Assembly: GCA_021734045.1 (NCBI GenBank) | Contig: JAIPJR010000026.1 | Location: 1 to 32,660, forward strand | Source: Fidelibacterota bacterium | GTDB taxonomy: Bacteria > Fidelibacterota > UBA8477 | Reading direction: 5' to 3' | DNA: 32,660 nt | Shown here: positions 1 through 24,984 of the stretch, piece after piece | How the letters are laid out: each line of letters starts with the position of its first letter | Position numbering within the stretch: the first letter of the stretch is position 1 | Position numbers and translations under genes: made by a program | The notes under the pieces: generated by a model | Database searches by the model: none | Told to the model about the DNA's origin: nothing | What the model saw: only the letters and a program-made list of their open reading frames with translations

Positions 1-83
1 TCTTGCTCTATATTAATCGCGTGTTTGAGCCTGATTCAGAACTCCAATTAATCATATTATTTACAATTATTTAGGTCAGTTAA

Positions 84-620
84 ATGGAAAATTTTCACGC
101 CACAACAATACTGGGTGTACGCCACAATGGCAAAATCGCCCTGGGGGGAGACGGTCAGGTCACATTTGGTGAAACCGTCATGAAACATTCAGCCACAAAA
201 ATTCGCACACTTTTTAACGATACGGTGTTGGCTGGTTTTGCCGGCGCAGCGGCAGATGCCTTTGCGCTGTTTGAGAAGTTTGAAGGACGCCTGGAAGAGT
301 ATAACGGCGACCTGATTCGTGCCGCGGTGGAACTGGCCAAAGAATGGCGGATGGATAAATATCTGCGTCAATTGGAAGCCATGTTGGTGGTAATGGATAA
401 AGAACACGGCCTTATCATTTCTGGAAACGGCGATGTACTGGAATCGGATGATGGTGTTTTATCCATCGGATCGGGGAGTCCCTACGCCACTGCAGCTGCC
501 CGGGCATTTGTGGAAGCCGGAAAGAAAAATCCCCGGGAGATTGTGCAGAAATCACTGGAAATCACCTCGGATATTTGCATTTACACCAACCGGCATATCA
601 GTGTTTTGGAATTGAAATAA
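84..620 (+). CDS. hslV: ATP-dependent protease proteolytic subunit HslV (ClpQ)
   Basis: HslV is the proteolytic dodecamer of the cytoplasmic HslVU protease, an N-terminal-nucleophile threonine peptidase that degrades unfolded and regulatory proteins fed by the HslU ATPase. The 178-residue product has the family's usual length. It starts [17 protein letters not shown], so a 6-residue propeptide would be removed to expose Thr7 of the ATTI motif. Further family signatures are [40 protein letters not shown] and the ending [14 protein letters not shown]. The sequence reads more like the Bacillus/Thermotoga type with a short propeptide than the E. coli type, which begins directly at TTIV. hslU follows after 40 nt on the same strand, the normal hslVU operon. 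The ATG is preceded only by a weak AGG. The 83 nt upstream hold no gene I can recognise; in many bacteria xerC lies there. Confidence 0.97.
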
Positions 621-660
621 GCCGCTTTAAGCAAAGACTATTTAGAAGAAGATTGGCATT

Positions 661-2022
661 ATGACTGAAAAAAATATTAAGACATTCACACCTCGCGAGA
701 TTGTGGATGAGTTGGATAAACACATTATCGGACAAGATGCCGCAAAACGGGCCGTCGCTATTGCTTTGCGAAATCGTTGGCGCCGGAAACGCGTGACTGG
801 TGACATTCGTAACGAAATTCTCCCCAATAACATAATCATGATTGGTTCTACCGGTGTGGGTAAGACGGAAATTGCCCGTCGGTTAGCCAGCCTGGCCCAA
901 GCACCATTTATTAAAGTGGAGGCTTCAAAATTCACCGAAGTGGGTTATGTGGGTCGCGATGTGGAAAGTATCATCCGTGACCTGGTGGAGGTAAGTTTTA
1001 ACATCGTAAAAGCTGAGCAGCAGGAAGTTGTGCACGCCAAAGCCCAGGAAAATGCCAATGAAAGATTGATGGATTTGCTCCTCCCTCCCGTGAAGCGACC
1101 GGTAAATTCTACCGAAGACGACCCGGACTATGAGCGGTATAAAAAAACGCGTGGCCGCTTACATGAAAAACTCATGGCCGGGGAATTCGAGGATCGTGAA
1201 GTAGAATTAAAAGTGCAGCAGGACGCCACGCCCATGATGCAGGTATTCGGTCCGCTGGGGATGGATGACCTGGGCATGAATCTGCAGGATATGTTGGGCA
1301 GCGCCATGCCCAAAAAGAATCGCATCAAGAAGGTCAGCGTAGCCGAAGCGCGAAAGATTCTGATTGACGAGGAAGCACATAAGCTCATTGATATGGACAA
1401 AGTCCAGGCTGAAGCCGTGCGCCGCGCTGAAGAAGCAGGTATCGTCTTTATTGATGAGATTGACAAAATTGCCGGTGAACATGCGGGCTCGGGTCCGGAT
1501 GTTTCCCGTGAGGGCGTTCAGAGAGACATTCTTCCCATCGTCGAAGGTAGCACTGTTAAAACCAAATACGGTACGGTTCGGACCGACCATGTCTTGTTCA
1601 TTGCTGCCGGTGCTTTTCATATCGCCAAACCGTCCGATCTGATTCCCGAACTACAGGGACGCTTCCCTATTCGGGTTGAACTGGACAATCTCACGGAAGA
1701 AGATTTTGTAAAAATCCTTACCCTGCCGCGATCCGCGCTCATCAAACAGTACCAGGCATTGGTGGAAGCGGATGGGGCATCGCTCAGCTTTAATGATGAA
1801 GCGATAAAAGAAATCGCCCATGTCGCCTATAAAGTCAATGATACTACCGAGAACATTGGTGCCCGGCGGCTACACACAATCATGAGCCGATTACTGGATG
1901 ACATTATGTACGATCTGCCCGATGACATTAAGACAAAAAAAATCCGGATCACCAAAAAGAAAGTGACTGCGGCATTCGAAAACTACATGGAAGATCAGGA
2001 CCTGAGCCGCTATATCCTATAG
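661..2022 (+). CDS. hslU: HslU (ClpY) AAA+ unfoldase ATPase
   Basis: HslU is the hexameric AAA+ unfoldase that binds ATP, unfolds substrates and threads them into HslV. The 453-residue product is full length. Visible motifs are Walker A GSTGVGKT (residues 62-69, with Ser where most HslU have Pro), the pore loop GYVG (95-98), the inserted I-domain (about 110-240), Walker B IVFIDEID (261-268), and the ELQGRFPIR arginine-finger region (330-338). The C-terminus ends LSRYIL, the tail that docks between HslV subunits and activates them, so the partner pair is intact. The start ATG follows hslV by 40 nt; upstream AAGAAG is a poor ribosome-binding site, which fits co-transcription with hslV. Transcription probably ends at the hairpin at 2125-2153. 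Confidence 0.98.
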   Translation: MTEKNIKTFTPREIVDELDKHIIGQDAAKRAVAIALRNRWRRKRVTGDIRNEILPNNIIMIGSTGVGKTEIARRLASLAQAPFIKVEASKFTEVGYVGRDVESIIRDLVEVSFNIVKAEQQEVVHAKAQENANERLMDLLLPPVKRPVNSTEDDPDYERYKKTRGRLHEKLMAGEFEDREVELKVQQDATPMMQVFGPLGMDDLGMNLQDMLGSAMPKKNRIKKVSVAEARKILIDEEAHKLIDMDKVQAEAVRRAEEAGIVFIDEIDKIAGEHAGSGPDVSREGVQRDILPIVEGSTVKTKYGTVRTDHVLFIAAGAFHIAKPSDLIPELQGRFPIRVELDNLTEEDFVKILTLPRSALIKQYQALVEADGASLSFNDEAIKEIAHVAYKVNDTTENIGARRLHTIMSRLLDDIMYDLPDDIKTKKIRITKKKVTAAFENYMEDQDLSRYIL

Positions 2023-7613: not shown

Positions 7614-8668
7614 ATTTCCCTCATCTGCTTTTTAATCTGGTCTACGATTTCCTGAATTGTGGGGACATTCCCACCCATCCGTCCATAAAATTTCACGGGT
7701 TTGTCACCATTCACAACTAACCTGACATCTTCCACCATCTGGCCGTTATTCAGTTCGAATACCGAAAATAACTTTACCCGCTCTTCAGCAGCCAGTTTTT
7801 CCAACACATGCCCTGGAAACGGCATGAGGGTAATCGGTCTTAGCATGCCGACTTTTACCCCGTCCTCCCGCAGTGTATCGACAGCACTTTGAACCAACCG
7901 GGAAACGATACCGAAGGCGACAAGAATTATTTCCGCGTCCTCAGTTTCATATTCCTGAAAACGAACTTCATTTTTACCGATAATTTCATATTTCTGCTGC
8001 AATTTCCGGTTGTGCCGTTCCAGATCATCCGGGTCCAGCTCAATTGAACTGATGAGGTTATCCTTATCTTCGGGAATGCCCTTAATGGCCCACTTTTTTT
8101 CGGGCAGCTCTTTAACAGGATCCGGAAAAACCACCGGTTCCATCATTTGCCCGATAAAACCATCGGCCAGCACTACCGCCGGGTTACGATATTTATCCGC
8201 TAACTCAAAGGCCAACATGGTAAGATCACACATCTCCTGAGCGGAATTGGGCGCTAAAACAATATTTTTATAATTCCCGTGTCCCCCACCCTTCACGATT
8301 TGGTGATAGTCACCCTGTTCCGGGGCAATATTGCCCAAACCGGGTCCGCCACGCATTACATCAACAATCACACCGGGCAGTTCGGCGCCGGCGATGTACG
8401 AAATACCTTCCTGCTTGAGACTGATACCCGGACTGGAAGAAGCGGTCATCACCCGCTGACCGGTTCCGGACGCACCGTACACCATATTGATGGCAGCCAC
8501 TTCGCTCTCTGCCTGTAAAAAAGTTCCGCCCACCAAGGGCATATACAAAGCAGCAGCCTGGGCAATTTCGCTGGCAGGGGTGATGGGATATCCAAAATAT
8601 GCCCGGCAGCCAGCCAGAATCGCACCCTTGACGATTGCTTCGTTTCCTTTGATTAATTGTCGTTCCAT
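7610..8668 (-). CDS. vorB: 2-oxoacid:ferredoxin oxidoreductase alpha subunit, VorB type
   Basis: The alpha subunit holds the pyrimidine-binding and domain II regions of the oxidoreductase and works with the fused beta-gamma protein and the ferredoxin encoded on either side. The 352-residue product begins [20 protein letters not shown] and carries [51 protein letters not shown] and [10 protein letters not shown], which match the VorB-type alpha subunits of 3-methyl-2-oxobutanoate:ferredoxin oxidoreductases. The frame is open to 8704, but the ATG at 8668 has GGAG 7 nt upstream and the conserved N-terminus. It starts 4 nt after the ferredoxin gene stops and overlaps the next gene by 4 nt. The exact 2-oxoacid used is inferred, not proven. 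Confidence 0.9.
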
Positions 8669-8672
8669 ACCA

Positions 8673-9041
8673 TCACTCCGCAAAATTGAGTTTCCGAAAA
8701 TCACTCAGCACAATCGTATCACCGGTGGATTCGATTACAGCCACACCTTTTACCGGGTCTTTTAGTGTCAGACTCGTCACACCTTCACCCTCAGGATTGA
8801 GGTACTTATGACGTGATTCCTCCCAATTCTTAAAGACCGTTATCGCACCAGGCTCAGGACAAGCATAAAAACAAACACCGCAGCCCGTGCACCCGTCACC
8901 ATCGTATTCTGAAGGATTGTAACCGTGTGTGTTGAAATGTTTCGCCAGGTGCAAAACATCCACGGGACACGCCACCACACACAAATCACACCCTTTGCAT
9001 TCTTCCTCGTTAATTGCTACAAATCCACGTGCATTCGCCAT
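8673..9041 (-). CDS. 2-oxoacid oxidoreductase delta subunit, 2[4Fe-4S] ferredoxin
   Basis: An electron-carrying subunit of the VOR/KOR complex. The 122-residue product has two complete CxxCxxCxxxCP clusters, [12 protein letters not shown] and [14 protein letters not shown], each able to hold a [4Fe-4S] centre. A C-terminal extension of about 50 residues follows and may contact the other subunits. The frame is open to 9122, overlapping the upstream gene, but the ATG at 9041 has AAGGAG (9053-9048) 6 nt before it. It lies 13 nt after the CoA-transferase gene and 4 nt before the alpha gene, giving the delta, alpha, beta-gamma order seen in many archaeal and bacterial 2-oxoacid:ferredoxin oxidoreductases. 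Confidence 0.92.
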
Positions 9042-9054
9042 TCCAAACTCCTTG

Positions 9055-10350
9055 TTATAGCAATCCGGCAGAGATTGCCTGCTCTTGTAATTCTTCCCTG
9101 AATTTCGGGTGGGCAATATCAATCAGCGCTTTGGCCCGGTTGCGTGTGCTCTTGCCGTGCAGGTAGGCTACGCCGTATTCTGTCACCACATAATGTACAT
9201 CCCCCCGGCTGGTGGTTACCGCTGCACCCGGTTTCAAATCCAACACAATCCGGGATTGGGTATCTTTCTTTGCCGTGGATGGCAAGGCAATGATGGGCTT
9301 CCCGCCCTTGCTGTGGGACGCCCCACGGATAAAATCAACCTGCCCGCCAATCCCTGAATAATTCCACCGTCCCATGGAATCAGAACACACCTGACCGGTG
9401 AGATCAACCTCAATGGCTGAATTTATGGCTACCATTTTGTCATTTTTAGAGATGATGAATGGGTCATTCACATAATCAGAAGGGTGGAACTCGATAAAGG
9501 GATTTTCCTCAATAAAATCATATACATGCCGGGTTCCCAGCACAAAGCTGGCGATGATTTTTCCCGGGTGTAATGTCTTGCGTTCCCCGTTGATAATCCC
9601 GGCTCCTGCCAATTCGACCACACCGTCGCTGAACATCTCGGTATGTATGCCCAGATCGCGCTTATCCTTCAAATGGTATAGTGTCGCATCCGGAATTCCG
9701 CCAATCCCCATCTGTAGCGTAGAGCCATCCTCCACCAGATCGGCAATGAATTTACCGATTTTCATGTGACGCTCGGTGAGCTCAATTCGCGGCAATTCAA
9801 TCAGATCAAAATCCTGCTCAACAATATGAGTCAGTTTAGACACATGAATGAAATTATCCCCATGCACACGCGGCATTCTGCGATTCACCAACGCGATGAT
9901 GGTTTTAGAGACTTTGGTGGCCGCCATGGTTGTTTCCACGCCCACACCAAAGGAGCAAAACCCGTGTTCGTCCGGTGGACTCACATGAATGAGTGAGATA
10001 TCCAACGGAATCTGCCGGCTCAGGTACAAGTCAGGAATTTCTGATAAAAAAATGGGCGTCCAGTCAGCACGTCCGGTATTCACCGCTTCCCGTACATTGG
10101 CACCAGTAAATAATGAATCCACCCGACAATGCTTTTCCATACCCGGTTCGGCATAGGGAGCATCACCCAGGGTGAGAATATGGCTTACCGTCACATCTTC
10201 CAGCGATTTGACCCTCTCGCTGAACCCTTCAACCAAGGGTAATGGTGTGGCACACCCGGGATGGATATACACCGTGTGATGCGACTGTACCGCCTCCATC
10301 GCTTCTTCGATGGAGCAAATCTTTTTACGATAGATGTCCGTCCAGTTCAT
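9055..10350 (-). CDS. Acetyl-CoA hydrolase/CoA-transferase family protein
   Basis: A 431-residue acyl-CoA:carboxylate CoA-transferase of the acetyl-CoA hydrolase/4-hydroxybutyrate CoA-transferase family. Visible family motifs are [16 protein letters not shown] (about 124-139), GIGGIPDA (215-222), HTEMFSDG (236-243), [11 protein letters not shown] (310-320) and [10 protein letters not shown]. Glu238 in HTEMFSDG falls where the catalytic Glu that carries the CoA thioester is reported in the Clostridium aminobutyricum enzyme; this is assigned by position from memory. In this operon the likely task is to move CoA from the acyl-CoA made by the ferredoxin oxidoreductase onto acetate or another acid, releasing the branched-chain or other acid. 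The ATG at 10350 lies 11 nt after the ald stop, with no strong ribosome-binding site, so coupling to ald is likely. Confidence 0.88.
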
Positions 10351-10361
10351 AGCAGCCGGGA

Positions 10362-11462
10362 TTACTTTCGGTTATTCAAGGTAAAATGTTCTCGAATGGC
10401 TGGAATCAGGCATTCCCCCTCAAGGAGATAGGTGCCCCGCCGTAAAGCGGAATTTTTATTCAACGCCTCTTTAGTTCCCAGATGTCCAATGGTTTGTAAC
10501 ACATCCACCAGCATATTCGCCAATGCCCGGGACGCCGTACGATTCACACCGGCTGTAATGTTGGGAACGCAGTAATGAATCACCCCTTCATCCATGTAAA
10601 TAGGATCGGATAATGTGGTTGGACGACTGGTCTCGCTAATTCCCCCTTCATCGATGGAAAAATCGATGAAGATGGATAACGGTTTCATAGCAGCGATCAT
10701 GGAGCGTTTCAGGATATGTGGCGTGAGGCTCCCGCGGATTAATACAGCACCCATGAAGACATCTGCAAATTTCAGGGTTTTTGTGATGTTATTTTGATCC
10801 GCAAACAGTGTGGCTACCTGGTTACCCAGTCGCCGCCTTACTTCCCGCAATTTATCAAGATTGCGATCCAGAACATGAACCTGCGCGCCCAGTCCGGCGA
10901 AGGCACAGGCGGCGTTCAGTCCGGATGTCCCCGCACCAAGAATTACCACCGATGCGGGCGAAACACCCGCTACACCGCCCAGTAAAACACCCTTCCCCAT
11001 GGGATCCCGACCCAGATAGTTGCCGGCAATGATGGGCGCCAATTGACCCGCGATTTCACTCATCCCCTTCAAAATTGGTCGTGAACCATCTTCATCCTCG
11101 ATGATTTCCATACCAATCAGGTTCACCTGTTTCTCTACCAACCCATGGTAAACTTCCGGACTGGCTATGGCCAGATGTTGGAATGAAACAATCGTCTGAC
11201 CGGTTTGGATGTATTCTAAATTTTCAGCCACTACCGGTAGGATTTTCAGGAGAATTTCCGACCGACCGTAGATTTCCTCGTGGTTAAAAACAATCTGCGC
11301 ACCCTGGTTCTGGTAATCCTGATCCGTCCAGCCACACGCCAGACCGGCACCGGATTCCAGATACACTGTATGTCCCGCCCTTACCAAGGTGGCAGCACCA
11401 CCGGGTGTGAGTGCGACACGCTTTTCATTCAGCCGGGTTTCATGTACGATACCGAAATTCAT
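10362..11462 (-). CDS. ald: Alanine dehydrogenase
   Basis: NAD-dependent alanine dehydrogenase interconverts L-alanine with pyruvate, NADH and ammonia. The 366-residue protein matches the family in length and order: RVALTPGG (15-22), substrate residues at Arg15, Lys73 and His96 (SFQHLA), the nucleotide-binding loop VVILGAGTSG (172-181), and Asp271 in DFSIDEGG, all at the positions expected for Ald. Similarity to the alpha subunit of NAD(P) transhydrogenase is general to the family, but the chain length and the SFQHLA site favour Ald. AAGGA precedes the ATG by 9 nt. It is the first gene of the packed minus-strand run that continues into the CoA-transferase and VOR genes, so alanine or pyruvate status may control the whole unit. 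Its promoter must lie in 11463-11679; no confident boxes were seen. Confidence 0.92.
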   Translation of the reverse strand: MNFGIVHETRLNEKRVALTPGGAATLVRAGHTVYLESGAGLACGWTDQDYQNQGAQIVFNHEEIYGRSEILLKILPVVAENLEYIQTGQTIVSFQHLAIASPEVYHGLVEKQVNLIGMEIIEDEDGSRPILKGMSEIAGQLAPIIAGNYLGRDPMGKGVLLGGVAGVSPASVVILGAGTSGLNAACAFAGLGAQVHVLDRNLDKLREVRRRLGNQVATLFADQNNITKTLKFADVFMGAVLIRGSLTPHILKRSMIAAMKPLSIFIDFSIDEGGISETSRPTTLSDPIYMDEGVIHYCVPNITAGVNRTASRALANMLVDVLQTIGHLGTKEALNKNSALRRGTYLLEGECLIPAIREHFTLNNRK

Positions 11463-11679: not shown

Positions 11680-14600
11680 ATGAAACAACCACTACCGAAC
11701 CAAATACCAGATTTAGACCTGGACTTTAAACACCACAAAACACTTTCGTTTCGTGCCCTGATGCAATTTCGGGTACACGATATCCTAATTGTGGCCAGTC
11801 TGTATGATGCCTTTAAACTGGAGGAAGGTGGACACATCACCGAGATGGTATTCATGGAATATCATCAGCTTAACCTGAATAATCCGCCGCATGTGATTCG
11901 CGTATCCACGGCTCGGGACGCGTTGGAATATTTGGAGCACAATCGTGTGGATCTGGTCATCACCATGGCTCGCCTGGGTGATATGGATGCGGAAGAATTT
12001 GGCCGAAAAGTACGGGAGCAGCACCCCAACCTGCCCCTGATCCTGCTGGCTGCGGACAAGCGCATTCTTGAAGCCGCACCCGACCCCGATTCACCATTTG
12101 AGTTTGTCTTTGCCTGGGTGGGTACGCCTTCCCTGCTGCCCGCAATCATCAAGGTGGTTGAGGATAAACACAATGCCGAGCGAGATATTCTGGAGGGCGG
12201 TGTTCGTTGTATCATCGTGGTGGAAGACTCACCCCAATATTATTCTGTCTTCATGTCAATGATATACCGGGAAATCATTCAGCACACCCAACACCTGATG
12301 CGCAATGAGTACACCGATGCATTACGCTTATTGCGGATGCGCTCCCGACCAAAAATCCTACTGGCAACCACCTACGAGGAGGGGCTGGCCTATTTTAATA
12401 AGTTCCAACAACAAGCACTGGCCGTTATCAGTGATGTCCGCTACCCGAAAAATGGTGTTCTGGATCCCAATGCCGGCGTGTCACTTTTGTCCCTGATTCA
12501 CAAAACCGACCGCGATTTACCGGTCGTCCTCCAATCCAAGGATCGTAAGAATCGCACCAAAGCTCAGCGGATTAACGCCTATTTCCTGGACAAGAACTCA
12601 CCGCGACTGGTGAAAGATTTACTCGAGTTCGTCGTGAAACACTGCGGATTTGGCAATCTGGTCTTCTCGAACCGGGACGGTACGCCCATTGACGAAGTGT
12701 ATGACTTAAAGGGACTGGAAAACGCCTTGCTGAAAGTTCCGGATCAAAGCGTCGAATATCACGCCCGACGGAATCATTTCAGCAATTGGCTCGCAGCTCG
12801 CGGATATTTCCAACTGGCAGATCAGATCAAACCGCTGCATCTGGAAGATTTTTCCCATGTGAATGAATTGCGGAAAATCATCACTGATTTGGTCCGTCGG
12901 GAACGCGCTACCCAATACCAGGACAAAATCCTGGATTTCGTTCCCGAAACCTATGATCCCGCCTTTCGCTTCGTCCGTTTCGGGACCGGCTCACTGGGCG
13001 GAAAAGCACGCGGACTGGCCTTTGTATCCACCTTTTTAAAACGCTTCGAGTGGCACACGAAATACCCCAATGTGGTGGTGGATATTCCCCATACATCGGT
13101 GGTTGCAACCGACATTTTTGATCAGTTCATCGAATTAAATCGTATTCAGAGCGCATTGGGGGACGCCGACAGCAATGAGGAAATCAATGCGATTTTTCGG
13201 GCAGGTCAATTTCCGGAAAGCTTTGTGGCCGATCTACGGGCATACCTGGAGCATCACCGCGTCCCCCTGGCTGTGCGTTCTTCTTCCCTCCTGGAAGATT
13301 CCCTTTTCCAGCCCTTCGCAGGTATTTACGCTACATTCATGCTGCCCAATAACACACCCCAGCTTGATGATCGATTGCAATTGGTATTGGATGCAATCAA
13401 AATGGTCTATGCATCTACCTTCCATCTGGAAGCACAACACTACATGACCGCCACTGGTAATCGTCCGGAAGATGAAAAAATGGCAGTGATTATCCAGAAT
13501 CTGGTAGGTGCTCAGTACGGAGACTATTTTTACCCCACCATTTCTGGAATCGCCCAGTCCTATAATTATTATCCCTTTAAAAACATGAAGCGTGAAAATG
13601 GGATTGCCAATGTTGCGTTAGGTTTGGGGCGTACGGTGGTTTTGGGGAATAAATCCTTGAGTTTCTGTCCCAAATACCCAAAAATTCTGCCCCAATTTTT
13701 TGACGCACGTTCCGTTTTAAAAAACAGCCAAAGCACCTTTTTTGCGTTGCCCATGAACTCTGAGCGCGATCCGCTGGCGGAAGGTGAACAGGGCAATCTT
13801 GAACTTTTGTCGATCCAACATGCAGAAAAAGATGGAACCCTGGAGCCCCTCACCAGCGTGTACGATGCAAACGATAATGCTTTCGTGGAAGCACCGGATA
13901 TGAAGGGGCCGCGCGTTATTTCATTTGCCAATATTTTGAAATGGAATGTCTTCCCACTGGCGGACATCCTTCAGAATCTCCTCCACTATGGTCGCCGTGG
14001 AATGGGTTGTGAGGTGGAGGTGGAATTTGCGGCCAACGTAGGCATGAATCAGGATGCCCCGACTGTGTTTAATATCCTTCAGATCCGACCCATGTTGACC
14101 TATGCTCAACTCACTGTGCTAGACCCGGATGAAATCAAGTCGGAAGATGTGATTTGCACGAGTGATCGCTGCCTCGGTCATGGCACGACCAATACCATCA
14201 AAGATATTATTTTGGTAAAACCCGAAACCTTTAAAGTTCAGGAAACCCATGAAATTGCATCTGAGATCGCGACACTAAACAGGTCAATGGGCGAGAATCA
14301 CCATTACCTGCTGATGGGGCCGGGACGCTGGGGTACGGCTGACCCGTTTTTAGGGATTCCAGTGAATTGGGATGAAATTTCACAGGCCAGGGCAATTGTT
14401 GAAGTGGGGTTACCCAATCTGTTTATCGAACCCTCATTTGGCAGCCACTTCTTCCAGAATCTGACCACATTGGGAATAAGTTACTTCACTATTCCCCCCG
14501 AAGCCTATGACACAGCTATTGATTGGGATTGGTTTAGTCACACCAGGGCTATAGAGGAGACAAAGTATCTGCGGCATTTTCGATTTAAAAAATCACTACC

Positions 14601-14682
14601 GATTCGGATTGATGGGCGGACTGGATTTGGTGCCATTTATAAACCCGGCCGTCAATCTCACGTTAACGATTTGATGACCTGA
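11680..14682 (+). CDS. Receiver-receiver-ATP-grasp protein with PPDK/PEP-synthase N-terminal domain (paralog 1)
   Basis: A 1000-residue cytoplasmic protein of unknown function. Domains: a degenerate receiver (about 30-165), with Met96 in place of the phosphoacceptor Asp; a second receiver (about 175-325) that keeps the acidic pair Glu182-Asp183, phosphoacceptor Asp252 in SDVRYP and Lys305; a linker with YHARRNHFSNWLAARG; then the ATP-grasp domain of PEP synthase/pyruvate phosphate dikinase, with GSLGGKARGL (437-446), AVRSSSLLEDS (531-541), EVEFA (780-784) and LQIRP (800-804). The phosphohistidine swivel domain and PEP/pyruvate barrel are absent. Instead there is a C-terminal region with GPGRWGT (880-886) and PSFGSHFFQN (918-927). 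It cannot be an ordinary PEP synthase; phosphorylation-controlled ATP use is inferred. No Shine-Dalgarno is seen. The start is supported by the similar length of the paralog at 16493. Confidence 0.9.
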   Translation: MKQPLPNQIPDLDLDFKHHKTLSFRALMQFRVHDILIVASLYDAFKLEEGGHITEMVFMEYHQLNLNNPPHVIRVSTARDALEYLEHNRVDLVITMARLGDMDAEEFGRKVREQHPNLPLILLAADKRILEAAPDPDSPFEFVFAWVGTPSLLPAIIKVVEDKHNAERDILEGGVRCIIVVEDSPQYYSVFMSMIYREIIQHTQHLMRNEYTDALRLLRMRSRPKILLATTYEEGLAYFNKFQQQALAVISDVRYPKNGVLDPNAGVSLLSLIHKTDRDLPVVLQSKDRKNRTKAQRINAYFLDKNSPRLVKDLLEFVVKHCGFGNLVFSNRDGTPIDEVYDLKGLENALLKVPDQSVEYHARRNHFSNWLAARGYFQLADQIKPLHLEDFSHVNELRKIITDLVRRERATQYQDKILDFVPETYDPAFRFVRFGTGSLGGKARGLAFVSTFLKRFEWHTKYPNVVVDIPHTSVVATDIFDQFIELNRIQSALGDADSNEEINAIFRAGQFPESFVADLRAYLEHHRVPLAVRSSSLLEDSLFQPFAGIYATFMLPNNTPQLDDRLQLVLDAIKMVYASTFHLEAQHYMTATGNRPEDEKMAVIIQNLVGAQYGDYFYPTISGIAQSYNYYPFKNMKRENGIANVALGLGRTVVLGNKSLSFCPKYPKILPQFFDARSVLKNSQSTFFALPMNSERDPLAEGEQGNLELLSIQHAEKDGTLEPLTSVYDANDNAFVEAPDMKGPRVISFANILKWNVFPLADILQNLLHYGRRGMGCEVEVEFAANVGMNQDAPTVFNILQIRPMLTYAQLTVLDPDEIKSEDVICTSDRCLGHGTTNTIKDIILVKPETFKVQETHEIASEIATLNRSMGENHHYLLMGPGRWGTADPFLGIPVNWDEISQARAIVEVGLPNLFIEPSFGSHFFQNLTTLGISYFTIPPEAYDTAIDWDWFSHTRAIEETKYLRHFRFKKSLPIRIDGRTGFGAIYKPGRQSHVNDLMT

Positions 14683-14788
14683 CCTTCCTGTTATCTCCCT
14701 CGGTATCGAGACAAAAATATTGCTGGTATCAAATGAGACAGCCCCAACTTTGCCTTGTACATAGAGTTATTGTCCATCCCCGGTTTTT

Positions 14789-16492
<1,704 letters not shown>

Positions 16493-19441
16493 ATGACCAT
16501 TGATGAATCGATAACGTTAGGTCCCCATAATCAGATTTCCTTCCGAGATCTGATGCATTTGCGGGTTCACGAAATTCTTATCGTTTCAAGTCTGTATGAC
16601 GCCTTCATTCTGGAGGAAGATGGCCGCCTGACCGAGTTGATTTTTACTGAATATCAGGACATGAATTTGTCCAATGCCCCACGGGTTACACGAGTTTCCA
16701 CCGCCAAACACGCCCTGCAAAAATTGGATAGGGAAAAATATGACATGGTGATTACCATGTCCCGCCTTCCAGATATGCATCCTTTTGAATTTGGAAAAGC
16801 AGTAAAAGAAAGTCATCCTGACCTGCCGGTAATTTTGTTGGCATCTCACCAGCGAGAATACAATTACCTGATTTCCAAAAACAAAGAAAAGAACGAGCTG
16901 GATAAAATTTTCTTCTGGTCCGGGGATTCCTCTCTATTCACAGCCATCATCAAATTTGTTGAAGACCGGAAGAATGCGGAGCGGGACATTCTCCACGGGG
17001 GTGTTCGTGCCATTATTGTTGTGGAAGATTCACCCCAGTTTTACTCGGTCTTTCTGCCCATGATTTACCGGGAGACAATCAAGCATATCTATAAATTGAT
17101 GAAGCGTGAATACACAGAATCTTTGCGTTTGCTTAGAATGCGGTCCCGGCCAAAGATCTTACTGGCATCCAATTACGAGGAAGCCGCCGCTTATTTCGCA
17201 AAATATCAGAACAATATATTAGCTGTTATATCGGATGTGCGCTATCCCCGAAAAGGAACGGTGGACGAACAAGCCGGTGCAAAATTACTCAGCATGGTCA
17301 CATCCAAAGTTCCGGATCTCCCCATTGTGCTCCAGAGCAAGGAGCCCGAAAATGCCTCTGTGGCTAAGCAATTAAACGCCTATTTCCTGGATAAAAATTC
17401 TCCCGAGCTGGTAATGAATCTACGGAAATTTGTGGTGAAGCATTGTGGTTTCGGGGAATTGGTGTTCAGCTCACCGGATAAATCAGAGATCTGCCGGGTT
17501 AGTGATTTGCGCTCTTTGGAGGCTGCCCTTGCGGTTGTACCGGCACAAAGTATCGGTTATCATGCCCGTAGAAATCATTTTTCAAACTGGCTTGCGGTGC
17601 GGGGTTATTTTGAAATCGCTGACATTCTGCGCACCAAGCATGCCCGAGATTTTGAGAATCTGGAAGCCATGCGAACACTACTGCTGGACCTGGTTCGGAG
17701 TCAGCGGAAAATACAGCACCAGGGAGAAATTATTTACTTCGATCCGGAAACCTACGATCCGGAATTCAAATTCGTCCGGTTCGGGCGCGGCTCCCTGGGT
17801 GGAAAAGGGCGCGGTTTAGCCTTTATGAATACGTATATGCGCGAATTCAACTGGTATCGTGCCAATAAACAAATTATCATTGATATTCCTCACACAGCAG
17901 TCCTGGGCACCAATCTCTACGACCGTTTCCTGGAGATGAATAACATAGATTCTGCGTCCCTGATGGAAGCGGATATTGACACAATCGACAAAGTTTTTCT
18001 GGCAGGAATTTTTGAGACCGCGACGGTGGAGAACATCAAATCGTACCTCTCGTATCACACCACACCATTGGCGGTACGCTCCTCATCGCTATTGGAGGAC
18101 TCCCTGTTTCAACCCTTCGCCGGGATTTACCGCACTTACATGATTCCCAATAATTCACCCAAACCAGCCAACCGGGTTGCCGACGTGTTGAATGCCGTGA
18201 AGCGAGTATACGCTTCCACTTTTTACCCTGATGCCAGAGCTTATATGGAAGCTACGGGAAATCGGCCTGAAGATGAAAAAATGGCAGTGATTATTCAAAA
18301 TCTGGTGGGTGCTCAGCACGGAAACTATTTCTATCCGGTGGCATCAGGATTGATACAGAGTCATAATTTTTATCCCATCGGTGTGATGAAACGGGAAGAA
18401 GGTGTGGTTTCCATGGCCCTTGGATTGGGCCGGACAGTCATGGGTGGCAATGACGCCCTGCGATTTTCTCCAAAACACCCTTCGGTGCTACCCCAATTTT
18501 ATAATGCCCAATCGGTGCTGAAAAATTCCCAGAAAAGTCTTTTTGTCCTGCCGCTAACCCAGACGGACCAAGAAACCGTGGATTCAGAGTTGAAACTTTC
18601 TGTGAAGGAAGCCTGGAAAGAGGGGTTGGCCGATCTGGTGGTTAGTTATTATTCCCAGGAGGACGGCCGGTTTTATGACTATGCGGTTGATGACGGGAAG
18701 CCCATTATCACACTAAAACCGTTATTGAACGCATCCAAATGGCAGCTCACAAATGCCTTCACCCAGCTTATTGATGAATGTCGTATTGCCATGGGTGGAG
18801 ACGTGGAAATCGAGTTCGCCATGCAGGTGGAGGATCTCACCACCAAACCCAGATTGTACATTTTGCAGATTCGACCCCAACACACGGTGAAAACGACTGA
18901 AGAATTTGAATTGGATGAGTATCCACTTTCGAAAATAGCTTTTAAAAGCTCACTCGCTATGGGGAATGGCATCAATGATCGAATTCGGGACATTGTGTAT
19001 GTGAAGCATCAAAAATTTTCTCCCCAAGTGACGCACCAGATTGCCCGGGAGATTGGCCAGCTGAATCGATCATTGGATGCTGAGCACCCCTATCTGTTAA
19101 TTGGACCCGGACGGTGGGGCACCAGTGATCCGAATCTGGGAATTCCCATCGGCTGGGAGCAGATCAGCCATGCCCGGAGCATGGTAGAACTGGGTTTGGA
19201 AGATTTCGACATTGACCCCTCATTCGGGAACCATTTTTTCCAGAATGTCACAGCATTGGAAATAGGGTATTTCAAAGTTAGCGTCCATGTCCAAAAAGAT
19301 TATCTTGACTGGAAATGGCTGGACAATCTACCGTCCGCACAGGAAACGGAATTTCTGCGTTACATCCGCTTAAAAGAACCCCTGACCATCATGATTGACG
19401 GTAAAAAGGGCGTTGGATTAGCCCTGAAACCCAAAAGGTGA
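16493..19441 (+). CDS. Receiver-receiver-ATP-grasp protein with PPDK/PEP-synthase N-terminal domain (paralog 2)
   Basis: A 982-residue paralog of the protein at 11680-14682; about 61 of 101 positions are identical by hand count over the first receiver. It has the same order: a first receiver with Met89 at the phosphoacceptor position; a second receiver with Glu178-Asp179, Asp248 (SDVRYP) and Lys301; the linker YHARRNHFSNWLAVRG; ATP-grasp motifs GSLGGKGRGL (433-442), AVRSSSLLEDS (527-537) and LQIRP (791-795); and a C-terminal region with GPGRWGT (871-877) and PSFGNHFFQN (909-918). It also lacks the swivel-histidine and PEP domains. The region just before the LQIRP block differs most between the copies. 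The function is unknown; a phosphorylation-gated ATP-dependent enzyme or regulator tied to amino-acid metabolism is inferred. The gene ends inside a terminator-like palindrome (19433-19453). Confidence 0.9.
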   Translation: MTIDESITLGPHNQISFRDLMHLRVHEILIVSSLYDAFILEEDGRLTELIFTEYQDMNLSNAPRVTRVSTAKHALQKLDREKYDMVITMSRLPDMHPFEFGKAVKESHPDLPVILLASHQREYNYLISKNKEKNELDKIFFWSGDSSLFTAIIKFVEDRKNAERDILHGGVRAIIVVEDSPQFYSVFLPMIYRETIKHIYKLMKREYTESLRLLRMRSRPKILLASNYEEAAAYFAKYQNNILAVISDVRYPRKGTVDEQAGAKLLSMVTSKVPDLPIVLQSKEPENASVAKQLNAYFLDKNSPELVMNLRKFVVKHCGFGELVFSSPDKSEICRVSDLRSLEAALAVVPAQSIGYHARRNHFSNWLAVRGYFEIADILRTKHARDFENLEAMRTLLLDLVRSQRKIQHQGEIIYFDPETYDPEFKFVRFGRGSLGGKGRGLAFMNTYMREFNWYRANKQIIIDIPHTAVLGTNLYDRFLEMNNIDSASLMEADIDTIDKVFLAGIFETATVENIKSYLSYHTTPLAVRSSSLLEDSLFQPFAGIYRTYMIPNNSPKPANRVADVLNAVKRVYASTFYPDARAYMEATGNRPEDEKMAVIIQNLVGAQHGNYFYPVASGLIQSHNFYPIGVMKREEGVVSMALGLGRTVMGGNDALRFSPKHPSVLPQFYNAQSVLKNSQKSLFVLPLTQTDQETVDSELKLSVKEAWKEGLADLVVSYYSQEDGRFYDYAVDDGKPIITLKPLLNASKWQLTNAFTQLIDECRIAMGGDVEIEFAMQVEDLTTKPRLYILQIRPQHTVKTTEEFELDEYPLSKIAFKSSLAMGNGINDRIRDIVYVKHQKFSPQVTHQIAREIGQLNRSLDAEHPYLLIGPGRWGTSDPNLGIPIGWEQISHARSMVELGLEDFDIDPSFGNHFFQNVTALEIGYFKVSVHVQKDYLDWKWLDNLPSAQETEFLRYIRLKEPLTIMIDGKKGVGLALKPKR

Positions 19442-19471: not shown

Positions 19472-19783
19472 TTACACGTACTCCTCACAGTGCCATACAC
19501 CGGCTTCACCCCTGGGCAAAGTGCACTGGGTGCGGATATCACAATTGGAACAGAGTCCTAACAACTGAGCCGAAGCAGACGATTCAGCCTTGGGGGTATG
19601 GTGTAATTTCAAATTTGTCCCCCCCTCAAAATCATATTCTTCACATGCTACGATTTTATCGGTGGCATAACGTTTCAGGGTACAATTCAAATTATGAATA
19701 CAGTTGAGACACAATCCGGTGTCAATTTCTTCAGCGGGACTCACATTTGATTGATGAGCAATTGATTCGCTCGGTGTTACCAT
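19472..19783 (-). CDS. Small protein with two repeated four-cysteine motifs
   Basis: I do not recognise a named family. The 103-residue product contains an internal duplication: C25-x2-C28-x5-C34-x12-C47 followed by EEY, and C78-x2-C81-x5-C87-x11-C99 followed by EEY. Both units start GLC and share a TL after the third Cys. Each four-Cys unit could bind one zinc ion or an Fe-S cluster; a rubredoxin-like or zinc-ribbon fold is possible. A spacer of about 30 residues separates them, and the first 20 residues look disordered. GGAG lies 7 nt before the ATG. It is convergent with paralog 2. The following regulator gene on the same strand lies upstream of it, 363 nt away, so it has its own promoter; TTTACA and ACTAAT about 17 nt apart upstream are a weak candidate. 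Confidence 0.8.
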   Translation of the reverse strand: MVTPSESIAHQSNVSPAEEIDTGLCLNCIHNLNCTLKRYATDKIVACEEYDFEGGTNLKLHHTPKAESSASAQLLGLCSNCDIRTQCTLPRGEAGVWHCEEYV

Positions 19784-20146: not shown

Positions 20147-21490
20147 CTAATCAATCCCGTAACGCTTCATTTTCTCGCGCAGTGTTTTTCGATCAATACC
20201 CAGAATACCTGCAGCCTTGGATTTATTGCCGGCAACTTTCATGAGAACGCCCCGAATATGTTCGGCTTCAACTTCAGCAATCGTTCGACTATAGCCCCTG
20301 TCCCGATTCACGGAAAAGCGCATATGAACCGGCAGATCGGTCATCTCCACTCGGTCATTCTCCGACATAAGAATCAGACGCTGAATGGTATTCTCCATTT
20401 CGCGAACATTCCCGGGCCAGCGATATTTTTTTAGCGCTTCCAGTACCCCATGGGCAAAAAGAACCTCCGGGCGTCCCAACTCTCGTTTGAATTTTGCGAT
20501 GAAATATTTGACCAAGAGGAGCGTATCATCCTCTCGCTCCCGCAACGGCGGTATACCAATATTGATAATGTTCAAACGGAAGTATAAATCCTCCCGGAAC
20601 AATCCCCGCTTCACCAGTTCCTGTAAATCTTTATTGGTGGCAGCAATGATGCGCACATCCACTTGCTGGGTTTTGGTGCTGCCAACCATGCAGACCTCTT
20701 TGGATTGGAGCACCCGTAGCAGTTTTACCTGCATGGAGACTGTCGCCTCACTAATTTCATCCAAGAAAATAGTCCCACCGTCAGCGGTTTGAAAAAATCC
20801 AGCCCGGGTTGAGGTTGCACCAGTGAAGGCACCTTTCACATAACCGAACAATTCACTCTCCAGCAGACTCTCCGGGATTCCTCCGCAATTAACCGCAACA
20901 AATGAGGCTGATCTCCGATTTCCAGAATAGTGAATAGCACGCGCCACCAACTCCTTCCCTGTACCACTCTCACCTGTGATCAAAACCGTGGCCACAGTTT
21001 CGGCAGCCTTCGAAATCGTGCGAAAAACTTTCTTCATGGTAGGAGACTGACCAATCAAACCATAGAATGAATCTTTAAACAGATCCGGGAAAACGCCTTC
21101 CGAACGACGTAGGTGCAACTTATCGAGGGAACGCTCAACTGCCGCGAATAGCTCCTGATCCGTAAAGGGTTTGGCCAGGTACTCTTCGGCACCTTTTTTC
21201 ACCGCCTCCACGGCGCCCTCCACCGTGGCGTAACCGGTAATCATCATCACTTCCGTGTTTTTATAATTTTCCCGGATGTGCCGGATCAGATCCAATCCAC
21301 TGATACCGGGCATTTTCAGATCAGTTAAAACCAAGTCGATTCTTGTCGATTCCAATACCTTCAGGGCACTCGGAACATCTTCGGCAATAAAGACACGATA
21401 GCCCTTGCTGGTGAGATTGCGCTGTAAAAGTTCCAGTGTATCCGGAGAATCATCCACAGCCAGTATGGTCGCTGTATCACGGGGCTCCAT
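20147..21490 (-). CDS. Sigma54-dependent response regulator, NtrC family
   Basis: A cytoplasmic transcription activator of sigma54 promoters. The 447-residue product has a receiver domain with the VDD acidic pocket, phosphoacceptor Asp57 (VLTDLKMPG) and the LAKPF lysine. The central AAA+ domain follows, with Walker A GESGTGKE, the sigma54-contact loop GAFTGA, Walker B GTIFLDEI and RWPGNVREMEN. A Fis-type helix-turn-helix closes it: NKSKAAGILGIDRKTLREKMK. All activating residues are present. The frame is open to 21514, but the ATG at 21490 has AGAAGGG about 7 nt upstream. It overlaps the end of the histidine kinase gene by 14 nt, so the two form one operon and cognate pair, driven by the sigma54 promoter at 23277-23293. 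Its target genes are not evident, though autoregulation is likely. Confidence 0.96.
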   Translation of the reverse strand: MEPRDTATILAVDDSPDTLELLQRNLTSKGYRVFIAEDVPSALKVLESTRIDLVLTDLKMPGISGLDLIRHIRENYKNTEVMMITGYATVEGAVEAVKKGAEEYLAKPFTDQELFAAVERSLDKLHLRRSEGVFPDLFKDSFYGLIGQSPTMKKVFRTISKAAETVATVLITGESGTGKELVARAIHYSGNRRSASFVAVNCGGIPESLLESELFGYVKGAFTGATSTRAGFFQTADGGTIFLDEISEATVSMQVKLLRVLQSKEVCMVGSTKTQQVDVRIIAATNKDLQELVKRGLFREDLYFRLNIINIGIPPLREREDDTLLLVKYFIAKFKRELGRPEVLFAHGVLEALKKYRWPGNVREMENTIQRLILMSENDRVEMTDLPVHMRFSVNRDRGYSRTIAEVEAEHIRGVLMKVAGNKSKAAGILGIDRKTLREKMKRYGID

Positions 21491-23228
21491 GCAAATTCCC
21501 TTCTGATTTTCCATTTTTTATCGGCAGGGTCAGTATGAAATCAGTCCCTGCACCTACCGTCGACTCCACATCGATTTTTCCACCATGAGAAACAACAATT
21601 CCCAAAACCACAGGAAGTCCCAATCCGGTACCTTCATGGACATCCTTGGTGGTAAAAAAAGGAATAAATATCTGGTCTTTGACGGTGGCAGTCATACCTA
21701 CCCCTGTATCCTGAACCCGTAGAACGATCTGATCATCCTGCTGAAGGGAAGTGTGGATTATTAATTCTCCACCGTCTGGCATAGCCTGAATGGCATTGAC
21801 CACCAAATTTACAATAACCTGATTCAATTGCGCCGGATCAGCAACGATCTCGGGCAGAGTAGGACTAAAATCCAGCATCAGGGTAATTTGATTTTTTTCC
21901 AGGCGCTGAGAAAAAAGGTAGAGTGCCTCTTTGATTAATTCATTCAGATTAATCCTGGATTTCACGGGAGGCATCTGGCGCGAAAAGAGCAGGAGCTTTC
22001 GAACGATGGTTCGTGCGTGTAAGGAAGCCTTGATAATCCGTTCAATATCACTGGCAATCCCAGGTGGTAGGTCCGTTTGTTTTTGTACCAATTGAGCAAA
22101 TCCCAAAATGCTCCCCAGGGGTTCATTCAATTCATGAGCCACGCCGGCAGTCAGTTGCCCAATCGTCGCCAATCGATCAGCATGGCGTATCTGGTCATTC
22201 AATCGCGCTTTTTCACTCTCAACCTGTTTGCGCTCAATAAGAAATGCCAATTCCTGCGCTATTGCTTCCAATAAACTGACCTCTTCTCGTAAAAAGGGTC
22301 CTTGATCCAACACTCTCAGATCCCGGTCATAACACAAGGCCACAAAGCCGCGTTCCTGTCCATGTACCCAGATTGGAGCCTGTAACCGATGCCTGCATTC
22401 CCGGTCTACGTGTGAAGTATAGTTTTGATCATCCACCTGAATCATGGCGAAACCGGCTTCCGGGTAGAGAAAGGCCGGTGGGATCAGATTCACTGCTTCC
22501 GTGAGGGTTTCCTCTAACGGGGCTCCCAAAGCGGTTGCCAGCTTGGCGATCTGATACACACAGGTCAGTTCCTTGATGCGCTCCCGCAGGTGGATTTGGG
22601 CGTGTCGATAGGCAATGGCAATGCTGATAAGGCTGGCCAACCCCTCGAATAATTCCACATCATCCGCGTTGAAATGGCCGCGCTTTTCCACTTCCAGATG
22701 GAGAATGCCGATGTTTTTCCGGCCTATCGTAAGAGGCAATAACAGGCACGATCCCTTTTTACGCGGGGGATCAAAATCCAAATTCCGGAATCTGCCTGAT
22801 TCTGGAATTTTAAAGATGAACTGAACCGGACAGGCAAGATCCTCGGTCCAAAATGCACCATGGGATGTTATGTGGCCGGATTTGAATTTATCCTCGCCTA
22901 TGTGAAGCAGGAGTAATTTCAACTGATCCAAATCGATGGCTCGGGAGGTCGCTGAGTCTATCCTATCCGCTGACTTTACTTTCAAGGTTTCCAGATGAAA
23001 TTGAGGTGAGTCATTTTGGACATAAATACTCGCCTGCAGACGGGCATCCTCCTCAAGTAGAAATTCAATTCGATTGCAGTTAAAAAAGTCTATTAAAGCT
23101 TTTGACAACGCCTTGAGAAAATTGGGCAACATCAATCCCTGTTCTGCTAAATCCGAGAGCTTCTGTGTCAGAACTGGGTAGAACTGGCTGATTTTATCAG
23201 CGATTTCCTGTTTTTGGGTAACATTCAT
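21477..23228 (-). CDS. Soluble GAF-domain sensor histidine kinase
   Basis: The sensor partner of the NtrC-type regulator encoded just downstream. The 583-residue protein has no membrane segment, so it senses a cytoplasmic signal. Two GAF-like regions (about 30-210 and 220-335) precede a coiled linker, the HisKA domain with phospho-acceptor His365 (GVAHELNEPLGSILGF), and the ATPase domain with N box NLVVNAIQAM, G1 DTGVGM, FxxF FIPFFTTK and G2 GTGLGLPVV. The ATG at 23228 is preferred to the in-frame ATG at 23255, because the predicted transcription start near 23266 would leave the latter only about 10 nt of leader, whereas 23228 has GAGGAT upstream. The ligand of the GAF domains is unknown. Confidence 0.94.
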   Translation of the reverse strand: MNVTQKQEIADKISQFYPVLTQKLSDLAEQGLMLPNFLKALSKALIDFFNCNRIEFLLEEDARLQASIYVQNDSPQFHLETLKVKSADRIDSATSRAIDLDQLKLLLLHIGEDKFKSGHITSHGAFWTEDLACPVQFIFKIPESGRFRNLDFDPPRKKGSCLLLPLTIGRKNIGILHLEVEKRGHFNADDVELFEGLASLISIAIAYRHAQIHLRERIKELTCVYQIAKLATALGAPLEETLTEAVNLIPPAFLYPEAGFAMIQVDDQNYTSHVDRECRHRLQAPIWVHGQERGFVALCYDRDLRVLDQGPFLREEVSLLEAIAQELAFLIERKQVESEKARLNDQIRHADRLATIGQLTAGVAHELNEPLGSILGFAQLVQKQTDLPPGIASDIERIIKASLHARTIVRKLLLFSRQMPPVKSRINLNELIKEALYLFSQRLEKNQITLMLDFSPTLPEIVADPAQLNQVIVNLVVNAIQAMPDGGELIIHTSLQQDDQIVLRVQDTGVGMTATVKDQIFIPFFTTKDVHEGTGLGLPVVLGIVVSHGGKIDVESTVGAGTDFILTLPIKNGKSEGNLHGAP

Positions 23229-23276
23229 GGTGATACGATCCTCGCCTGGAGACATGCCCGGAGTGGTTCGTATTTC

Positions 23277-23516: not shown

Positions 23517-24830
23517 TTACAGGTACATGCCGCGAATCTCAGATGCTTTCAGCACGCGTTGAATCGCCACCACAAATGCAGCCATGCGCAAGCTAATCTT
23601 CCGCTCTTCAGATACTCTCAAGACTTCACGGATAGCACCTGACATGATTTCGGTCATCTCCTCATTTACCCGCTTTTCTGTCCAGTAGTAGCCCATACGG
23701 TTTTGAACCCATTCCAGGTAGCTGACGGTAACACCACCGGAATTACACAGAATATCGGGAATGATATGAACTCCCCGTTCATACAGCAGATGATCTGCAT
23801 TGGGTGTGATGGGGCCATTGGCACCTTCCGCGATTAATTGGGCTTTAATCGCATCGGCATTGCGCGTGGTGATTTGATTTTCCAGGGCTGCCGGCACCAG
23901 AATATCCACATTCATTTCTAAAACGGACATGGGATCATCAGGCATGGTAACACCTTCTGCAGTGTATCCCTGCAATGTCCCGTGATCTGCAACCCAGGCC
24001 ATCATTTCCGGTACATTAAGTCCTTGCTCACTGTCGGTGACATAGGCACCGGAGATATCCGCGATACCCTTGATGGTCACGCCGGCTTCATGCAGAAACA
24101 AGGCGGCATAGCTTCCCACATTACCAAATCCCTGAACGGCAGCCGTTTTTTCAGACAAATTCCAGCCCAGGTATTCGGCCATCTTCATCACACCGATGAA
24201 AACGCCCCGTGATGTGGCCTCCTTCCTTCCCAGACTACCGCCCAACTCAATGGGCTTTCCTGTAATCATGGCTGGCAGGTAATCACCCTTATTCAGTGAA
24301 AAGGTATCCATCATCCAGGCCATAATCTGGGCATTGGTATTCACATCCGGTGCAGGAATATCGCGGTCCGGACCAATAACATCGGAAAATTCCAGTACAT
24401 AGCGCCGGGAAAGGGATTCCAGTTCATGGGGAGAGAGGGATTTGGGGTCCACAATAACCCCGCCTTTTCCACCGCCCATGGGAATGTTGGCCACCGCGCA
24501 TTTAAAGGTCATCCAGAATGCAAGGGCTTTCACCTCATCCAAACTCACATTGGGATGGAAGCGAATGCCACCTTTGGCTGGTCCACGTGCGGTACTATGC
24601 TGCACCCGGATTCCGGTAAAAATGCCCACATCACCATTGTCCCGGCGAATGGGGATTTTGGAGATAGTAATTTTCTGGGGCTCTTTTATCAGGTTGATCT
24701 GATTTTCCGACAATCCCAGGATTTTCGCGGCTTCATCAAACTGTGCCACAGCATTTTGAAATGCATTCATGTTGTCAGACATGCTAACCCCTGATTTGGA
24801 GGTCGGCTGAGTCGAAGATACTGCGTTCAT
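23517..24830 (-). CDS. Glu/Leu/Phe/Val dehydrogenase family, second glutamate dehydrogenase
   Basis: A class distinct from the gdhA at 14789-16135, closer to NAD-linked hexameric glutamate dehydrogenases of archaea and Gram-positive anaerobes. Motifs are RGPAKGGIRFHPNV (substrate Lys), [23 protein letters not shown], the coenzyme fold VQGFGNVGSYAA, LIAEGANGPITP and NSGGVTVSYLEWVQN. The family often acts in glutamate catabolism. The start is uncertain: ATG 24830 (437 residues) has GAAGGG 4 nt upstream, while ATG 24782 (421 residues, MSDNMNAFQNAV) has AGGGG 5 nt upstream and matches the usual family N-terminus. The gene stands alone before the kinase-regulator operon, with no clear terminator. 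Substrate preference for Glu over Leu or Phe is inferred from sequence feel, not proven. Confidence 0.9.
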   Translation of the reverse strand: MNAVSSTQPTSKSGVSMSDNMNAFQNAVAQFDEAAKILGLSENQINLIKEPQKITISKIPIRRDNGDVGIFTGIRVQHSTARGPAKGGIRFHPNVSLDEVKALAFWMTFKCAVANIPMGGGKGGVIVDPKSLSPHELESLSRRYVLEFSDVIGPDRDIPAPDVNTNAQIMAWMMDTFSLNKGDYLPAMITGKPIELGGSLGRKEATSRGVFIGVMKMAEYLGWNLSEKTAAVQGFGNVGSYAALFLHEAGVTIKGIADISGAYVTDSEQGLNVPEMMAWVADHGTLQGYTAEGVTMPDDPMSVLEMNVDILVPAALENQITTRNADAIKAQLIAEGANGPITPNADHLLYERGVHIIPDILCNSGGVTVSYLEWVQNRMGYYWTEKRVNEEMTEIMSGAIREVLRVSEERKISLRMAAFVVAIQRVLKASEIRGMYL

Positions 24831-24984
24831 TTCACCCTTCAACTTTCCTTAAAAGTCTGGTTAGAGCGTTTATGTTGTAATAATGATTTTGCATAACCGG
24901 TAATCTGCAAAAACTAATCCACGGCCGGACATTCACAACCGCTTGTTGAACTGTGCCAAACCTTGAATACAGAGGCCACTCAGG

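Follow-up and report, generated by a model that had tools for sequence, protein, structure and literature searches.

Tandem-receiver proteins with a PEP-synthase-type ATP-grasp domain are genetically linked to glutamate dehydrogenase in many phyla

Introduction

What do two large paralogous proteins, each joining receiver domains to the ATP-binding domain of PEP synthase and PPDK, contribute on either side of a gene for glutamate dehydrogenase (GDH)? This question is raised by a contig of a Fidelibacterota bacterium (JAIPJR010000026.1, assembly GCA_021734045.1), of which a stretch of 32,660 nucleotides, the window, was analysed as a whole. The proteins are here called RRP1 and RRP2. Members of the RRP family are publicly annotated as 'PEP/pyruvate-binding domain-containing protein', for example WP_041525632.1 of Parabacteroides distasonis, a name that reflects the ATP-grasp domain only and assigns no function. 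Our literature search found no paper describing RRP, and no description of a receiver paired with a dikinase-type ATP-grasp/swivel-like output was found in the literature searched. A possible older trace of such a factor is the title of Baggio and Morrison (1996), as cited in PMC4539542, which refers to trans-acting gene(s) downstream of gdhA of Bacteroides thetaiotaomicron.

Gene arrangement and the paralog pair

The first-pass annotation of this DNA described two paralogs of ~990 residues that flank gdhA, one in convergent and one in divergent orientation, and this arrangement was confirmed. The genes concerned are as follows.

11680..14682, + strand: RRP1, 1000 aa; pseudo-receiver, receiver, helical linker, PPDK-type ATP-grasp domain and predicted swivel-like C-terminal module (C-module)
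14789..16156, - strand: gdhA, NADP-specific GDH, 455 aa, between RRP1 and RRP2
16493..19441, + strand: RRP2, 982 aa, with the architecture of RRP1; AlphaFold2 model with pLDDT 88 and pTM 0.81
20147-23255, - strand: histidine kinase with a GAF domain and sigma-54 activator of the NtrC type, separating RRP2 from the second GDH
23517..24842, - strand: second GDH (GDH2), archaeal GdhA-like, 441 aa, which adjoins RRP2 in the congener L124

The gdhA product scored 778.9 bits against NF006929 (cut-off 536) and is thus an NADP-type GDH. Its gene is convergent with RRP1 across a gap of 106 bp and divergent from RRP2 across 336 bp. RRP1 and RRP2 are 52% identical overall, with a maximum of 66% in the second receiver; over the first receiver a hand count had given about 60%, for which the computed value is 54%, while the paralogy itself stands. 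Both copies are present in two congeners (L123 and L124), and a tree of 45 relatives separates an RRP1 clade from an RRP2 clade; hence, the duplication predates the genus. Named relatives assign the window to Fidelibacterota (Marinimicrobia/Neomarinimicrobiota). Since the second GDH gene lies directly beside RRP2 in L124, the cluster in the window is RRP1-GDH1-RRP2-GDH2, in which the kinase/NtrC pair separates RRP2 from GDH2. This pair is kept in L123 and was not seen at the same place in L124. In all, 24 HisKA matches were counted in the genome.

Domain architecture of RRP1 and RRP2

The domains were placed as follows.

11770..12174, + strand: RRP1 pseudo-receiver, phospho-Asp and acidic pair lost; placed via alignment to RRP2
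12202..12651, + strand: RRP1 second receiver, E/D, D, S and K kept; placed via alignment to RRP2
12991..14118, + strand: RRP1 ATP-grasp domain (PPDK_N, PF01326), residues 438-813
14122..14679, + strand: RRP1 C-module, predicted to be swivel-like; placed via alignment to RRP2
16562..16975, + strand: RRP2 pseudo-receiver, residues 24-161, CheY fold in the model
17003..17452, + strand: RRP2 true receiver, residues 171-320, CheY fold; phospho-Asp D248 at 17234-17236
17480..17767, + strand: RRP2 helical linker with the invariant motif YHA..NHFSNWL..R and a weak DUF5752-like match
17765..18895, + strand: RRP2 ATP-grasp domain (PF01326), residues 425-801
18908..19438, + strand: RRP2 C-module, predicted to be a diverged phosphohistidine-swivel-like domain; candidate phospho-His H914 at 19232-19234

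Pfam detects a single receiver in RRP1 and in RRP2, the second receiver being missed, and the fold match of the second receiver in the RRP2 model reaches Z values of up to 15.9. Conservation was counted in an alignment of 81 relatives. In the first receiver, the column of the phospho-acceptor (89) holds M, T, N or other residues and an aspartate in 0 of the 81 sequences, and the acidic pair is also lost; the first receiver is a pseudo-receiver. In the second receiver, E178, D248, S/T282 and K301 are each found in 81 of 81 and D179 in 77 of 81 sequences. The early description of two receiver domains per protein therefore holds for the fold, whereas the active-site residues for phosphorylation are present in the second receiver alone.

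Within the linker of RRP2, H357, W366 and R370 are invariant in the helical motif (residues 350-410, 17540-17722). The match to DUF5752 is borderline (23.3 bits in L094) and suggests a helical module that is common to otherwise unrelated proteins.

The PEP synthase/PPDK-type ATP-binding domain that had been recognised in both paralogs is supported by PF01326 matches with E-values of 8e-34 and 2e-35. In RRP2, its residues K438, R529, E535, E772, E774 and Q792 are invariant among the relatives, and its structure aligns with the rifampin phosphotransferase 5hv1 with a Z value of 27.1 and 2.7 A over 285 residues. The PEP/pyruvate barrel (PF02896) has no Pfam match in RRP1 or RRP2, in agreement with the first reading; because this barrel is absent, the classical dikinase reaction is unlikely for both proteins, as had been proposed.

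The C-terminal module

The paralogs had also been said to lack the swivel histidine. On the level of sequence this appears so: the phosphohistidine swivel domain PF00391 has no Pfam match in RRP1 or RRP2, hhalign, in which the profile of the C-module was set against those of PPDK swivel domains, gave a probability of 0.3% and no similarity, the search of PDB sequences with the C-module profile returned chance matches only, and Foldseek run on the C-module alone gave no significant match. However, predicted structure leads to a different view. Folded alone, the C-module (the C-terminal 177 residues) yielded a model with pLDDT 94, and at least 9 of the first 12 VIA-align matches listed for it are swivel domains, with Z values of only 5.3-7.0, which are moderate and under 8, the safe level of this tool. 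The best match is the His domain of rifampin phosphotransferase (756..867; Z 7.0 over 107 residues), and Enzyme I (Z 6.0) and PPDK (384..509; Z 5.9) are also found. A further match, to a bacterial pyruvate kinase (Z 6.9), involves a segment that we take to be the swivel-like C-terminal domain of this enzyme.

Alignments of the whole RRP2 model extend across the His domain of each of three known enzymes, namely PEP synthase 2ols (415..981 on 4..467, Z 25.8), PPDK 1dik (425..981 on 7..511, Z 19.4) and rifampin phosphotransferase 5hv3 (425..980 on 7..866). H914 is present in 80 of the 81 relatives as well as in all 6 sister-family sequences aligned, at identities down to 22%. It is situated at the start of a helix that corresponds to the phospho-His helix of PPDK (G-S-H versus T-S-H), an equivalence that is taken from the order of secondary-structure elements and not from superposition. 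The swivel reading gains weight from the position of the module in the chain, from a matching succession of strands and helices and from the near-invariance of H914, and with moderate confidence the C-module looks like a diverged phosphohistidine-swivel-like domain. The claim of a missing swivel histidine is thus not upheld by the predicted structure, in which the C-terminus appears swivel-like in fold but not normal in sequence. Taken with the ATP-grasp domain, RRP looks like the complete half of PEP synthase or rifampin phosphotransferase that moves phosphate from ATP to histidine, devoid of the PEP/pyruvate barrel and probably placed under receiver control.

Comparison with known systems

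The rifampin phosphotransferase RPH-Lm (5hv1, 5hv3, 5fbu) resembles RRP in its ATP-grasp domain and provides the best structural match of the C-module. In RPH-Lm a rifampin-binding domain is inserted between the ATP-grasp and His domains, whereas the C-module of RRP follows the ATP-grasp domain directly, shares no detectable sequence similarity with the His domain, and two receivers and the helical linker are added in front. PEP synthase and PPDK (2ols, 1dik) are likewise similar to RRP in the ATP-grasp domain and in the whole-model match through the swivel domain, but RRP differs by the missing barrel, a swivel that is unrecognisable by sequence, the added receivers and the position beside GDH. 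N-terminal receivers in front of an enzymatic output are known from PorX and PleD. PleD, which is among the Foldseek matches, shares with RRP the tandem of pseudo-receiver and receiver; the second receiver of PleD is degenerate. In contrast to both proteins, the output of RRP consists of a dikinase-type ATP-grasp domain and the putative swivel-like module. A defence-system library gave no match for RRP, and no relatives were found on viral contigs.

Linkage to glutamate dehydrogenase

The gene link between RRP and GDH is strong and represents the strongest result of this study. Full-length RRP was found in 40 of 60 Fidelibacterota genomes; GDH lies within 5 kb of it, at distances of up to about 3 kb, in 30 of these 40, and the remaining 10 have RRP and GDH on different contigs. 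A survey of 76 named loci from many phyla, with flanks of up to 10 kb, placed GDH immediately adjacent to RRP in 44 and anywhere on the locus in 49 cases, while the commonest neighbour cluster after GDH occurs at 9 loci. Divergent, convergent, upstream and downstream arrangements all occur, and both GDH subfamilies are involved. At three loci (L045, L054 and L066), RRP and GDH genes alternate on a single strand.

The family is present in 172 of 199 Bacteroidales genomes, among them gut commensals. GDH is found within 10 kb of RRP in at least 48 of 120 Bacteroidales genomes, compared with a chance expectation of about 1 of 120, estimated for two gdh genes, a 20 kb flank and genomes of 3-4 Mb. 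Named cases are Parabacteroides distasonis, in which RRP adjoins the annotated gdhA, and Phocaeicola massiliensis.

The link is not without exceptions. Streamlined relatives with genomes of 0.9-1.0 Mb (G027, G045, G051) have kept GDH without RRP, which fits better to a dispensable regulator than to an essential partner. Relatives without a nearby GDH comprise Acidobacteriota as well as Bacteroidota that have 2-oxoacid:ferredoxin oxidoreductase genes instead. The family as a whole is linked to amino-acid genes, although roughly one in three of the loci sampled has no such neighbour. The neighbours of the GDH-less members are mixed and offer no alternative partner, except for three loci.

At these three loci, L095 from Bacteroidales and L091 and L104, which are Bacteroidota loci labelled Chlorobiota, two tandem RRP genes stand beside subunits of 2-oxoacid:ferredoxin oxidoreductase with no GDH, which suggests a connection with the 2-oxoacid side of the glutamate/2-oxoglutarate node. 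Another record, L038 (JABHWU010000096.1), is titled Deltaproteobacteria; its RRP groups with the order of the window, its GDH is 75% identical to that of the window, and it is probably a mislabelled genome bin.

Sister proteins

The core of ATP-grasp domain and C-module also occurs in sister proteins, which have GDH as a neighbour in 12 out of 13 genomes. One form, of 579-586 aa, is the core without receivers; a second, of 1063-1070 aa, has a different N-terminal region in front of the core and a nucleotidyltransferase domain at the C-terminus (PF01909 with E 1e-8 in L084), and a further form has 800 aa. The gene order at L117-L120 is GDH, the receiver-less ~585-aa gene and the ~1070-aa nucleotidyltransferase form, while at L121-L122 it is GDH, the 800-aa sister, CoA-transferase and Vor, so that here the 800-aa sister replaces RRP, with GDH on one side and the CoA-transferase/Vor genes on the other. 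Because receiver-less and other sisters are also linked to GDH, the link is a property of the catalytic core, to which variable input domains are attached.

The nucleotidyltransferase form is located at L084:1335-4523 (-), where it adjoins a GDH gene, at L118:4025-7231 (-), and also in L117, L119 and L120; it shows a GS..SDIDI motif and, by eye, a GAF-like N-terminal region. Related nucleotidyltransferase domains modify nitrogen-control proteins elsewhere (GlnE, GlnD). By this analogy, the nucleotidyltransferase-bearing sisters favour protein modification, without showing it.

Proposed role and alternative explanations

The first-pass annotation had suggested that a two-component signal gates an ATP-dependent phosphotransfer or ligation tied to nitrogen/carbon metabolism. 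The putative phosphotransfer role gains support from the gdhA link, which extends over phyla, orientations and receiver-less sisters. The reading that we prefer, although tentatively, is that RRP1 and RRP2 may be phosphohistidine phosphotransferases that are gated by receivers and devoted to the glutamate/2-oxoglutarate node, where they would switch GDH. A histidine kinase would phosphorylate Asp248 of the second receiver, and the pseudo-receiver might serve as a docking or dimer surface. The phosphorylated receiver would then free the ATP-grasp domain to phosphorylate His914 of the swivel-like C-module, a step comparable to the half-reaction with which PEP synthase and rifampin phosphotransferase begin. 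Since RRP itself lacks a PEP/pyruvate barrel, a partner, most likely GDH, would receive the phosphoryl group and thereby be switched in its activity; the RRP pair may serve the pair of dehydrogenases in the cluster. The present data show the domain anatomy, its conservation and the gene link to GDH, and the swivel-like domain is predicted from structure, whereas histidine phosphorylation, the gating by receivers and GDH as acceptor are steps that we infer. It might further be possible, with rather more doubt, that such a stripped PEP-synthase-type phosphohistidine relay under two-component control covalently switches GDH in many phyla.

If RRP controls GDH, it would be an overlooked regulator of the point at which carbon and nitrogen metabolism chiefly meet, its gene would be a candidate for the old trans-acting control of Bacteroides GDH, and a dikinase phosphotransfer module would be serving signalling rather than PEP making. 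Covalent switching of GDH, if true, would add a further control of ammonia assimilation beside the GlnE/PII and GarA-type systems, in a family that is spread over many phyla besides being near-universal in Bacteroidales, yet is named for its ATP-binding domain only.

An alternative, unlikely but to be taken seriously, is that the phosphoryl acceptor of RRP is a small molecule of the glutamate/2-oxoglutarate node, with GDH as no more than a neighbour in the pathway. To our knowledge, the characterised swivel-His enzymes, Enzyme I excepted, act on small molecules. Such an acceptor would be in line with rifampin phosphotransferase and PEP synthase as well as with the GDH-less loci beside 2-oxoacid:ferredoxin oxidoreductase (L091, L095, L104) and with the few members whose neighbour is a protein with a glutamate synthase domain (L041). 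However, no substrate-binding domain is left in RRP, where only the C-module comes after the ATP-grasp domain, and GDH of both subfamilies is linked far more than any other enzyme.

Rather improbable is a non-catalytic role, in which RRP would sense ATP/AMP together with the phosphorylated receiver and control GDH by contact, similar to PII or GarA. The exchange of receivers for other N-terminal domains in front of one conserved core, as seen among the sisters, would suit such a sensor, and so would the loss of RRP from the streamlined relatives that retain GDH, but every catalytic-type residue of the ATP-grasp domain, like H914, is nearly invariant across many phyla, which is beyond the needs of binding.

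There is also little probability that RRP is a maturation or activation factor for GDH, perhaps the product of the trans-acting gene(s) of Baggio and Morrison (1996). Consistent with it, the Bacteroidales locus L162 has RRP convergent with and immediately downstream of a gdhA; in most Bacteroidales sampled, however, RRP is not directly downstream of gdhA, and GDH genes persist in relatives without RRP. The trans-acting gene(s) reportedly affect GDH activity, and the segment restoring it is said to be about 3 kb, which equals the size of an RRP gene. A locus like that of Bacteroides thetaiotaomicron was sought via a catalase neighbour, and none was found among 199 Bacteroidales.

A genuine PEP synthase or dikinase activity of RRP, with the barrel supplied by another gene, is very improbable: an ATP-grasp and a putative swivel-like domain are both present, but the only PF02896 and PF00391 domains of the genome belong to one ordinary PPDK of 905 aa on another contig. 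A search for stand-alone swivel or barrel domains elsewhere in the genome found this PPDK only. Finally, an accidental link or inherited synteny can practically be dismissed: closely related loci do share their gene order by descent, but the link is found in all four orientations, across many phyla and with both GDH subfamilies, and several subfamilies of the protein take part in it.

Further genes in the window

Directly upstream of RRP1, an amino-acid oxidation cluster (6180-11462) codes for alanine dehydrogenase, CoA transferase, ferredoxin and VorB/VorAC; its CoA-transferase/Vor genes, which flank RRP1, also flank the 800-aa sister in L121/L122. Two further genes of the window are the following.

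19472-19783, - strand: 103-aa protein with two Cys-rich repeats (CxNC..C..CEEY), adjoining RRP2
27293-31948, + strand: 1551-aa protein with an N-terminal AMP-forming acyl-CoA ligase and a C-terminal GNAT domain

In the 1551-aa protein, the ~800 residues between the ligase and GNAT domains gave no Pfam match. The gene for the Cys-rich protein is also present in the congener L123 and at none of the other RRP loci searched, so that among these loci it is confined to the genus.
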